Assembly: GCF_019396385.1 (NCBI RefSeq)
Contig: NZ_JAHKRN010000031.1
Span: 1-64,000, forward strand
Direction: 5' to 3'
Source: Nonomuraea harbinensis
GTDB lineage: Bacteria > Actinomycetota > Actinomycetes > Streptosporangiales > Streptosporangiaceae
DNA: 64,000 nt
Shown: positions 44,172 to 47,784 of the stretch, piece after piece
How the letters are laid out: each line of letters opens with the position of its first letter
How positions within the stretch are numbered: position 1 is the stretch's first letter
Program-made: the position numbers and the translations under genes
Notes under the pieces: model-generated
The model's input: only the letters and a program-made list of their open reading frames with translations
What the model was told of the DNA's origin: nothing
The model's database searches: none

Positions 44172-45326
44172 TTACCAGGCCGCCTCGATCACCGGGCGGG
44201 ACCCCAAGAGCTCGGGATCGGGAGATCCGGGGTGGACCAAGGACGTGACGCGTCCCTCGTCGACTCTGCTCAGTGGATGGAAGTTGCCCGCGAGCAGGAG
44301 GTGGCGCCCGGTGCCGTCGTAACGGATCAGGTTCCAGCGCGCGATGCTCTCGCCCTCGTGGTCCCTGCTCAACAGGGTGCGGATCTTGCGTCCGTCTGTG
44401 ACGGAGTACTCGTCCACGGTGTAGCGGTGCGGTCGCCGGCCGTCGGACAGCCGGCTGTGGCCGATCAGCATGCTGCGGCCGTCCGGGTTGATCGTCGAGG
44501 CCGTGACCTCCTGCCCTGGCGCTACGACGCGACTGGCCGCGAGTGTGGTGCCGGAGGCGGCCGTGTCCAGGACCCGGGCCTCGGATCCGACCACGAGACC
44601 GAGGGTGCGGCGATCGGCCGCCCATGACAGGCTCTCGATCTGTCCCGCGACGTTCGTCGTCCACGTGCGTGTCGTACCCGTGGGCAGATCGACGACCGTG
44701 AGCTGGGCCCCGGGGCAGAAGCGCAACGTCTTCCCCTTACCGCACACCTCGCCGTCGAGGCTGTAGGAGAGCCGGGTGCCGTCGCCGGTGACAGCAAGGG
44801 AGCTCGCCGTCGTACCGAGCACCTTGGGGATCACGTCGTGAACCAGCTCGGCCGGCCTCCCTTGTCCGTCGACCCGCGCTCGGTGGAACCTTGTGCTGCT
44901 CACCTGCGTCTCGCGCGACTGCACGCTCTGCGCGATGTAGAAGGTCTCACCGTCGCCGGCGCCCGCGAGCAGATATCCACCGGGCTCCTGGAAGCTTCCC
45001 TCAGGGGTGGGGGGCAGCCCGAGCCGGCTCGTGACCTTCCCGGTACCGGCGTCGTGGACCGTCACGCCGTCAGCGCTCGCCATCAGCAGGAAACGCGGGC
45101 CGGTGAGAGCGTGCGTCGCGGGCGCGGTGGGCGCGCCTCCTGTCCCGGCCACCATGGCGGCGACCGCGCCGATGACCACGACGACGAGCGCGGCCGCGAG
45201 CGGGACCGCCAGGGCGAGCCGGCGCGCGGGAAGGGCCCGCGCCGCCGGGCGCAGGGTTTCCGGGCGGATCCGCTCGGCGTCGGCGGTGAGGGTGTCCTTG
45301 AGCTGGTCTTCGAGCCATGACGTCAT
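44172..45326 (-). CDS. membrane-anchored beta-propeller-like protein linked to an ECF sigma factor
   Basis: This 384-residue protein has a cytoplasmic N-terminus ([20 protein letters not shown]), one membrane helix (RLALAVPLAAALVVVVIGAV, about residues 36-58) and a long extracytoplasmic region with repeated beta motifs (LTGPRFLLMASADGVTVHD, SLSWAADRRTLGLVV). The start overlaps the sigma-factor stop (ATGA). Such proteins are common partners of SigE-type ECF factors in actinobacteria, and the N-terminus may act as an anti-sigma region; no classical zinc anti-sigma motif is seen. Confidence 0.8.
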   Translation of the reverse strand: MTSWLEDQLKDTLTADAERIRPETLRPAARALPARRLALAVPLAAALVVVVIGAVAAMVAGTGGAPTAPATHALTGPRFLLMASADGVTVHDAGTGKVTSRLGLPPTPEGSFQEPGGYLLAGAGDGETFYIAQSVQSRETQVSSTRFHRARVDGQGRPAELVHDVIPKVLGTTASSLAVTGDGTRLSYSLDGEVCGKGKTLRFCPGAQLTVVDLPTGTTRTWTTNVAGQIESLSWAADRRTLGLVVGSEARVLDTAASGTTLAASRVVAPGQEVTASTINPDGRSMLIGHSRLSDGRRPHRYTVDEYSVTDGRKIRTLLSRDHEGESIARWNLIRYDGTGRHLLLAGNFHPLSRVDEGRVTSLVHPGSPDPELLGSRPVIEAAW

Positions 45327-45868
45327 CGGTTTCCCTCCAGTTTGACGGTGAGTGCCTTCAGGGCTCGGGAGACGGTCGATTTCACCGTTCCGCGGCTGAC
45401 TCCCATGGCTTCGGCGATCTCGGCCTCGGACAGGTCGAGGTAGTAGCGCAACACCACGGCTTCTCGCTGGCGGCGGGGTAAGGCGCGTACCGCGTCGGAC
45501 ACCTCGCGGCGCGTCTCCCCCAGCAGCGTGACAGCCTCCGCCGACCGGAACGGCTTCTGCCGATCGCCGGTGAACCTGCTCGTGATGGACCGGCGGCGGT
45601 GGACCATGCGGCATCCGTTCACCACACTCGCCCGCAGGTAGGGCAGCGCCCGATCACGGTCGGTCAACCGGCTCCATCGGCGGTGCAGCGCCGCGAAGGC
45701 GTCCTGGACGACGTCCTCGGCCGTCTCCTGATCGCCCACCAGCAAGTACGCCAACCGGACCAGGCCCAGCCGCTGAGTCAGGAAGAGTTCGGCCACGACA
45801 GCCTCGTCCATGGCCGGGGCAGGCGGTGGCTCCGGCTCCTCCACCGTTCGTTGAATCGCGAATCGCAT
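45323..45868 (-). CDS. ECF RNA polymerase sigma factor, SigE family
   Basis: This 181-residue factor has region 2 ([20 protein letters not shown]) and region 4 ([20 protein letters not shown] and [19 protein letters not shown]). These match the SigE-family ECF41-like actinobacterial sigma factors that lack a long C-terminal extension. ATG 45868 follows GGAAGAGG; GTG 45883 is an alternative. The next gene overlaps by four bases and encodes a membrane protein that probably tunes its activity. Confidence 0.9.
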
Positions 45869-45983
45869 ACCTCTTCCATGCACAGTCGCCGTCCAGGTTG
45901 CCTCGTGAGACGGAAGTCACCATCATGCGCCCCGGGCGAAATCCGGATGAGTGTGGCGCCTCAAGGCTGCTAACGTGGCCGTC

Positions 45984-46028
45984 ATGGCACGAGGTATCTG
46001 GTCGCAGAAGATCCGCTCCGCCCGCTGA
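45984..46028 (+). CDS. 14-residue leader peptide upstream of ABC-F gene
   Basis: ATG 45984 to TGA 46026-46028 encodes [24 protein letters not shown] sequence, like an extended -10 box, ends at 45976, so the transcript may start at or next to the ATG and be translated leaderless. The stop codon lies inside the 5' arm of the first attenuator hairpin. Leader peptides of this type sense ribosome-stalling antibiotics upstream of ABC-F resistance genes; that role is inferred here. Confidence 0.5.
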
Positions 46029-46104
46029 CGGCGGCGCCTTCTTCCTGCTGAATCCGCGCTCGCCGTCCCGGTTCCCGCCGGGCGGCCCTTTGCTGTTGCC
46101 CGGC
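46027..46104 (+). promoter_or_regulatory. attenuator-like set of competing hairpins before the ABC-F gene
   Basis: Stem A pairs GACGGCG (46027-46033, overlapping the leader stop) with CGCCGTC (46061-46067). Stem B pairs CCCGG (46067-46071) with CCGGG (46078-46082). Stem C pairs GCCGGGC (46077-46083) with GCCCGGC (46098-46104). A and B touch at base 46067 and B excludes C, so a ribosome stalled in the leader could switch the fold. There is no clear T-run after C, so translational control is as likely as termination. Confidence 0.5.
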
Positions 46105-46155
46105 TCCACTGCGAGCTGCGGAGCACCGTTGAACCTCATCCCCACTACCGAAACC

Positions 46156-47784
<1,629 letters not shown>

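Follow-up and report, generated by a model that had tools for sequence, protein, structure and literature searches.

A conserved leader ORF with alternative RNA helices as a candidate ribosome-mediated translational attenuator of an actinobacterial ABC-F gene

Introduction

In the ErmC attenuator, four RNA segments alternate between an off state, in which 1 pairs with 2 and 3 with 4, and an on state, in which 2 pairs with 3, the ribosome-binding site being located in segment 4. Leader peptides are likewise found ahead of genes for ABC-F proteins, to which MsrA and MsrC belong. According to Table 3 of PMC4335068, S-M-[RK]-L-[RK] or A-M-R-L-R occurs in Firmicute leaders that precede mef, msr, and erm genes, and this source also gives erm(K) as regulated transcriptionally. 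For ErmDL, PMC8298421 describes a ribosome that stalls when the central residue of R-L-R occupies the P site, the +x+ motif being needed for telithromycin and Ser4 and Met5 mattering for erythromycin arrest. In Actinobacteria, the uORFs of tiaA and are5sc encode MVGDDDISG and MLV, on whose start codons the ribosome stalls with lincosamides, streptogramin A, and pleuromutilins, and not with erythromycin in the experiments of PMC12421871 drawn on here, which also indicate that tiaA seems to be controlled at translation. MsrDL (MYLIFM), which is short and hydrophobic, has been described as stalling at its stop codon and as acting transcriptionally (PMC10314930).

Here, we analyzed the region upstream of an ABC-F ATPase gene of Nonomuraea harbinensis (genome of 9.39 Mb) within a stretch of 64,000 nt, hereafter the window. 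The names class I, II, and III as well as the segment letters a–f were coined in this analysis, GIWSQ being the selection criterion for class I, to which the window leader belongs (table 1). The S-x-[RK]-x-R core is common to class I leaders and to ErmDL and ErmKL of Bacillus (MTHSMRLR...), from which class I differs in having MARGIW before the serine, Gln in the place of Met5, and K-I/V-R in the place of R-L-R, and in being probably leaderless. The N-terminal MT[AH][SA]M of the ErmDL-type +x+ leaders is absent, with MARGIWSQ found instead; class I may therefore work like these leaders, yet it is not filed among them. Mef(E)L (MTASMRLR), Msr(A)L (MTASMRLK), and Msr(C)L (MTASMKLR) exhibit the same motif as the window leader when the peptides are compared (PMC4335068), and class II actinobacterial leaders (MYSGIASMKLRSAR) are nearer to these three than the window leader is; mef(E), on the other hand, differs by its Rho-independent terminator. 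At the RNA level, the likeness is with ErmC, whose four-segment logic is shared, whereas here the d:e hairpin lies inside the equivalent of 3:4 and the stop codon falls in the loop of 1:2. The ErmC leader peptide is unrelated to that of the window. A conserved peptide ORF, mutually exclusive helices sequestering the ribosome-binding site, and a stall position predicted to free this site were all found, the last of them by folding only and with partial release. As uORF-controlled ABC-F genes of Actinobacteria, lmrC, tiaA, and are5sc are also comparable, and so is MsrDL as an erythromycin-sensing leader of an ABC-F gene, although its likeness is to the leaders that precede paralogues of the window gene and not to the window leader. 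The mechanism proposed below is of a known kind, and its distinguishing features are the peptide, the leaderless WblC-type promoter, and the strict ruler from arrest codon to stop codon.

Table 1. Coordinates of the features of the leader region and of the ABC-F gene in the window
Feature	Coordinates	Strand	Basis or remark
GAAATC, match to the WblC/WhiB7 box GAAAWY	45938..45943	+	sequence, published consensus, class I conservation
-35-like ATGAGT	45947..45952	+	3/4 defined positions of TKGMNN; 3 nt after box; 18 nt before -10
-10 box TAACGT, TGC just before	45971..45976	+	transcript start expected at about 45983-45984
Leader ORF, 14 codons	45984..46028	+	sequence, conservation, promoter position
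K-I-R, codons 9-11	46008..46016	+	codon 10 is the expected P-site codon of a stalled ribosome
Segment a, final leader codons	46008..46025	+	pairs b; at equilibrium also f
Segment b	46027..46044	+	pairs a (off) or c (on; 46027-46037 with 46056-46067)
Segment c	46053..46071	+	pairs b (on) or f (off; 46053-46063 with 46111-46122)
d:e hairpin, 10 bp	46077..46104	+	46077-46086 with 46095-46104; present in both states
Segment f, including the ribosome-binding site GGAG 46120-46123	46111..46125	+	fold, covariation
ABC-F ATPase gene	46129..47784	+	proposed TTG start; alternative start ATG 46156

Results

Distribution and Conservation of the Leader Region

A protein scan with the ABC-F sequence was performed, and the best 80 of 156 relatives were used. 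By pattern, 62 of these best 80 together with L007 and the window constituted 64 attenuator loci (L029 being added by hand), among which 61 are distinct, namely 34 of class I and 27 outside it, the latter corresponding to 30 further loci before deduplication. Loci L107–L109 and L111 are not in the 61, and L005 and L006, which on reading repeat L068 and L070, were not counted either. In the tree of the best 80 of 156 relatives and the window, in which the midpoint root serves for drawing only, class I fell in a clade that has 36 rows and is supported at 100/100. Besides the window, this clade harbors members of Streptomyces, Micromonospora, Actinomadura, Pseudonocardia, Sphaerisporangium, and Streptosporangium. 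A class I leader or a near variant was present in 34 of the 35 clade members with upstream sequence (L059 has none), L060 being the clade member for which no attenuator match was obtained at E 0.1. On the same side of the tree, 29 other rows exhibit the same RNA architecture with other leaders, and the 16 remaining rows do not show this architecture. Among the best 80 of 156, the rows lacking the attenuator are L059, L060, L105, and 15 whose leaders are of another type. At 79–92% best-segment identity (best 80 of 156), the range of families represented suggests transfer between genera.

Within the genus, a relative reached E 1e-100 or better in 23 of the 54 genomes surveyed, the own genome included. 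Of these relatives, the window alone has its leader, three (L005, L006, and L007) combine this attenuator with a different peptide, and short leaders of another kind precede the other 19; the attenuator stretch of L007 is identical to that of L078 from Nonomuraea terrae. The paralogues L008–L026, L080, L088, L090, L091, L094–L096, L098–L104, and L106 encode ABC-F proteins 57–61% identical, and their leaders have 6–8 residues (e.g., MHLYFL, MQYLFFL, and MNLPLYL, each followed by a stop codon), as observed in 19/19 genus loci and in 15 of the best 80. In L105, a Nesterenkonia ABC-F locus, the leader ends in R-L-R-P-V-L before TGACGGC, which puts the motif in the same place, and there is no attenuator match.

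The Leader Peptide and the Position of Its Motif

The class I peptide has the consensus MARGIWSQ[KR][VIL]R(SAR), from which some loci deviate at residues 1, 3, 12, 13, and 14. Because class I was chosen via GIWSQ, the invariance of these five residues is given by definition; [KR]-[VIL]-R, which was not part of the selection, directly follows them in 34/34 class I loci, so that S-Q-[KR]-[VIL]-R, with its serine two positions before the +x+ motif, is found in every class I leader. Across the 34 distinct class I loci, codons 4, 10, and 11 exhibit mostly silent variation, and residues change in codons 12–14, past the expected arrest point. The DNA of codons 5–8 is invariant, with no silent changes either, and for this reason peptide-level selection is visible at codons 4, 10, and 11 only. 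Relatives outside class I have GIASM[KR]LR or [KR]PW leaders, among others, and S-M-R-L-R itself is present in leaders of relatives.

In 50 of the 61 distinct loci, the stop lies five codons after the middle (P-site) codon of [RK]-x-[RK], and a distance of six to twelve codons occurs in none. Nine of the other 11 have [KR]-P-W with K/R at the same position, in L076 the motif is shifted by one codon toward the stop, and L066 has neither; an additional +x+ three codons before the stop occurs in 10/61. The leading edge of a ribosome lies 15 nt from the first base of its P-site codon. With the motif five codons before the stop, a stalled ribosome would therefore end at the stop codon.

The first-pass annotation of this DNA had proposed a 14-codon ORF upstream of the ABC-F gene and had named conservation of its peptide in relatives as a check, and both the ORF and the conservation were recovered, as the clade described above illustrates. 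Its view that the peptide is of an unrecognized kind has to be revised, since its S-Q-K-I-R core agrees with [RK]-x-[RK], the motif of macrolide/ketolide arrest presented in PMC8298421; the peptide appears to be a variant of a sensor type already known, and the window leader may sense macrolides or ketolides. MARGIWSQK was not found in the open-licence PMC literature searched.

Promoter Geometry and the Start of the ABC-F Gene

A scan with the sigma-70 consensus yielded no promoter, and the promoter was instead assessed by the WblC rule and by the conserved position of short elements across loci. TAACGT lies within TGCTAACGT, with 7 nt between the box and the leader ATG, and a TANNNT ending 6–7 nt before the leader start is present in 33 of the 34 class I loci; for a 5–9 nt window, the same 33/34 stand against a control mean of 0.0 and a maximum of 1. 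An exact GAAAWY was in place in 14/34 class I loci and one with up to one mismatch in 25/34 (control means of 0.0 and 0.8, respectively), and the strict test of spacing between this box and the -10 was passed by just 4 of the 27 non-class-I loci. WblC-activated promoters of S. coelicolor are reported to carry GAAAWY 3 nt before a -35 element that is spaced by 16–19 bp, most of their transcripts starting 7 or 8 bp past the -10 (PMC7157823). The layout in the window, with GAAATC, 3 nt, ATGAGT (3/4 bases), 18 nt, and TAACGT, fits this arrangement. Taken together, the placement of the -10, the conservation of the WblC box, and the published rules indicate that the class I leader is probably leaderless, as the first-pass annotation had suggested, and that it is probably under WblC control in many loci.

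Downstream, the GGAG of segment f precedes TTG 46129 by 5 nt, and a start codon in the equivalent position, 5–6 nt after GGAG, was found in all 34 class I loci (TTG in 30, GTG in 4), whereas the ATG equivalent to 46156, nine codons on, was found in 16/34. Three annotated plasmid relatives (of 21 records) also have the gene start at the same place, as TTG, ATG, and GTG. The ABC-F frame thus probably starts at TTG 46129 rather than at ATG 46156, in which case the untranslated region ends 27 nt short of position 46155, to which the annotation had extended it. The protein resembles resistance ABC-F proteins below the curated cut-offs of the nearest NCBIfam families: it scored 311 bits against the 800 of NF000171 (TlrC/CarA/OleB/SrmB ABC-F), and, from the ATG 46156 frame, 309 bits against the 380 of NF000355 (ribosomal protection-like ABC-F). 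It may protect the ribosome. The product of the divergent gene upstream (45323-45883, minus strand) is a sigma-70-type factor that contains regions 2 and 4.

Alternative Pairings and Their Covariation

Among the six segments, the pairings a:b, b:c, c:f, and d:e are possible, e:f and a:f being less clear, and folding yielded downstream pairings that are mutually exclusive. The 179-nt leader had a z of -2.29 relative to dinucleotide shuffles, 5 of 200 shuffles being at least as stable. Its first hairpin, CCGCC 46018-46022 with GGCGG 46030-46034, holds the leader stop codon in the loop. Three further proposals of the annotation are in agreement with these data, namely a leader stop overlapping the first hairpin, overlapping alternative stems (for which a:b and c:f covariation adds to the folding), and the ABC-F gene as the target, with which leader and hairpins travel. 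Rfam gave no match at the gathering score in the 64,000-nt window, the best weak match in 45900-46200 having an E of 4.4.

Partner-swap analysis of the 27 non-class-I loci gave pronounced signals for a:b (z -6.7) and c:f (z -4.6), with 0/2000 swaps as good for each, followed by e:f (z -3.1; 3/2000 as good). The value for d:e in the same loci (z -2.1) was no stronger than the top controls, d:f with z -2.2 in all 61 and a:d with z -1.9 in class I, and the control swaps b:d, a:c, a:e, and b:f gave no signal in the 27. Within class I, the a:b swap was weak (z -1.8), and c:f and e:f, two helices that hardly vary there, gave none. The a:f pairing received little support (z -2.3 in non-class-I and z -0.7 in class I). 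For b:c, no signal was seen in non-class-I loci (z -0.4) and z was -4.5 over all 61; this helix, a competitor of both a:b and c:f, is nearly invariant, being 93.9% paired with two-sided changes in 2/11 pairs.

The covariation score of c:f and d:e together exceeded all 500 shuffles in the 61 loci, with 88.4% of the cells paired and 32 two-sided cells versus 9.2 in the shuffles. Taken individually, the c:f helix is 80.1% paired with two-sided changes in 7/11 pairs, two of its pairs being unpaired in 33/61 and 24/61 loci; a slide of c:f by +2 gave 28 two-sided cells, though with 47.7% paired. Helices a:b and c:f are thereby supported. At equilibrium in class I, the ribosome-binding site pairs with a at 0.64 versus 0.12 with c.

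Predicted Accessibility of the Ribosome-Binding Site

The switch was modeled by folding the RNA downstream of the ribosome only, the first free base being stepped along the leader in an equilibrium model that ignores kinetics. With the T of the stop codon as the first free base, the ribosome-binding site was predicted to be unpaired at a mean of 0.30 over the 61 loci, versus 0.14–0.16 at -42 to -12 and 0.18–0.19 at +6 to +21. The peak exceeded the baseline in 51/61 loci, and the maximum within -42 to +21 was at 0 or -3 in 33/61; the native window peak was reached by 0/120 shuffles, positions +24 to +45 not being counted in the baseline. Values of 0.22–0.25 at +24 to +30 precede a second rise at +39 to +45 (0.28–0.30), where c would be covered. 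Pairing of the site with a or c amounted to 0.76 in class I and 0.72 in the others for the full leader, to 0.68 and 0.56 at +12, and to 0.09 and 0.10 at the stop codon. The predicted release is partial (mean 0.30, window 0.37), the remainder being weak local pairing or pairing with e.

The Attenuator at Other Genes and on Plasmids

A search model of the attenuator, R1, was used, and the bits given here are R1 scores. R1 matched upstream of ABC-F genes on Streptomyces fungicidicus plasmid p1 (133 bits, with a class I leader), on Micrococcus plasmid pLMA7 (120.3 bits), and on pRErm46 (78.7 bits; gene 64% identical and about 1.2 kb upstream of erm(46)). It also matched at 51.2 bits before the Erm gene of L111, whose protein is above the NF000499 cut-off and whose leader, MCASIRKRPCL, has R-K-R at the matching position. 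The match before erm(46) itself was weak (17.9 bits), the chance level being illustrated by two stretches elsewhere in the window with 15.5 and 14.1 bits. Of 17 Erm-like loci compared with R1, L126, the same place as L111, was strong, L121 was weak (18.0 bits), and the rest had 13.7 bits or less. Across the phylum, matches at E 0.01 or better were obtained in at least 4 of 396 genomes, the own genome included, a count that is no measure of spread since only eight candidates were scored per genome. Upon reading, L112, L113, and L115–L117, from the phylum and own-genome matches, appeared to be chance matches, L113 and L117 having been read on one strand.

Some neighboring features of these loci are recorded here. 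On pRErm46, erm(46) comes with a leader-like ORF of its own, the end of which lies in a hairpin, and with a d:e-like hairpin as well (L109:7557-7816). The Erm gene of L129, above the NF000499 cut-off, has a short upstream ORF, MAGIASMRLRTP followed by a stop codon, with the class II motif and no R1 match. On pLMA7 (L108:4965-7846), the ABC-F gene overlaps the next gene, that of an MFS transporter, so the two may form an operon. Finally, a weak R1 match of 27.3 bits in the own genome (L114, C101:15126-15276, minus strand) lies before an MFS transporter gene; it contains a possible leaderless ORF, MSGASCAAVCAAVTRTLR followed by a stop codon, with a -10-like TAGCAT ending 7 nt before the ATG and with no +x+ five codons before the stop.

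Discussion

The comparison of loci and the folding together support a conserved device upstream of the ABC-F gene through the conservation of the leader, the position of its motif, the promoter geometry, the covarying helices, and the predicted release, and we regard the attenuator as real and conserved and, on these sequence grounds, as very probably functional. Our preferred reading, to which we assign a probability of about two in three, is a ribosome-mediated translational attenuator of ErmC topology that senses a macrolide or ketolide and controls the ABC-F gene; in this reading the stalling, the drug, the translational level of control, and ribosome protection by the ABC-F protein are the parts that we infer. 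A WblC/WhiB7-type promoter would give a transcript starting at the leader ATG or one base before it. With no drug present, ribosomes would traverse the 14 codons of the leader, a:b would form with the stop codon in its loop, and the ribosome-binding site in f would be held by c, with d:e inside, or by a. A macrolide or ketolide in the ribosome would stall it within K-x-R, the P site being occupied by codon 10 (Ile/Val) while Arg11 waits. Ending at the stop codon, the stalled ribosome would cover a, so that b could pair with c and f would be freed from both partners, allowing ABC-F translation from TTG 46129.

The level at which the leader acts is the point where the best-placed alternative departs from this mechanism. 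In a transcriptional attenuator, polymerase would stop in the leader, by an intrinsic or a Rho-dependent terminator, and the stalled ribosome would prevent this, as in lmrC and msrD. For many of the ABC-F leaders studied so far, Streptomyces lmrC and are5sc among them, action on transcription is described (PMC8546547, PMC12421871). In the window, one terminator-like element was scored where 0.1 would be expected, a short hairpin at 46023-46036 with CCTTCTTCCT behind it, and 5 or 6 T occur in some 8-nt window after b in 14/61 loci. Against this, a U tract is not conserved: at most 3 T in 8 nt follow d:e in 61/61 loci, which disfavors an intrinsic terminator there, and 3 or fewer T follow f in 58/61. 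The lack of a conserved U tract speaks for translational control, and the ribosome-binding site is itself inside the covarying helix c:f. We consider control by transcription unlikely.

Ranked next, and likewise improbable in our estimate, is a translational attenuator that answers another inducer, be it lincosamides, streptogramin A, pleuromutilins, or another drug. The are5sc and tiaA leaders respond to these drugs and not to erythromycin in the experiments reported in PMC12421871, and class I has no Met5, on which the erythromycin arrest of ErmDL leans. Those two leaders, however, stall the ribosome at the start codon, whereas here the +x+ motif occupies residues 9–11 at a fixed distance from the stop in 34/34 class I and 50/61 loci overall. 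Plain translational coupling, with the leader as a landing site for reinitiation at the ABC-F start and hairpins that add stability, draws on the proposal that leader genes raise translation through reinitiation (PMC4833913), but we judge it very improbable as it leaves unexplained the arrest motif at constant stop distance, the alternative covarying partners, and the accessibility peak.

Returning to the macrolide- or ketolide-sensing translational attenuator, a broader and more tentative proposal, to which we give somewhat less than even odds, is that it constitutes a portable leaderless module of Actinobacteria in which transcription is gated by WblC and translation by the ribosome. One RNA chassis would then accommodate swapped peptides (GIWSQKVR, GIASM[KR]LR, and [KR]PW) and swapped genes (ABC-F, Erm, and perhaps an MFS exporter), with the arrest codon kept five codons before a stop in the hairpin loop, and clades might tune the drug via the peptide while the RNA covaries.

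If the preferred reading holds, +x+ macrolide-sensing leaders would extend from Firmicutes to a large group of actinobacterial ABC-F genes, for which drug-inducible expression is predicted and a corrected start codon is suggested. The distance from the arrest codon to the hairpin would also serve as an explicit ruler that can be tested, and one type of RNA switch would link ABC-F and Erm genes of Actinobacteria, a resistance plasmid included.
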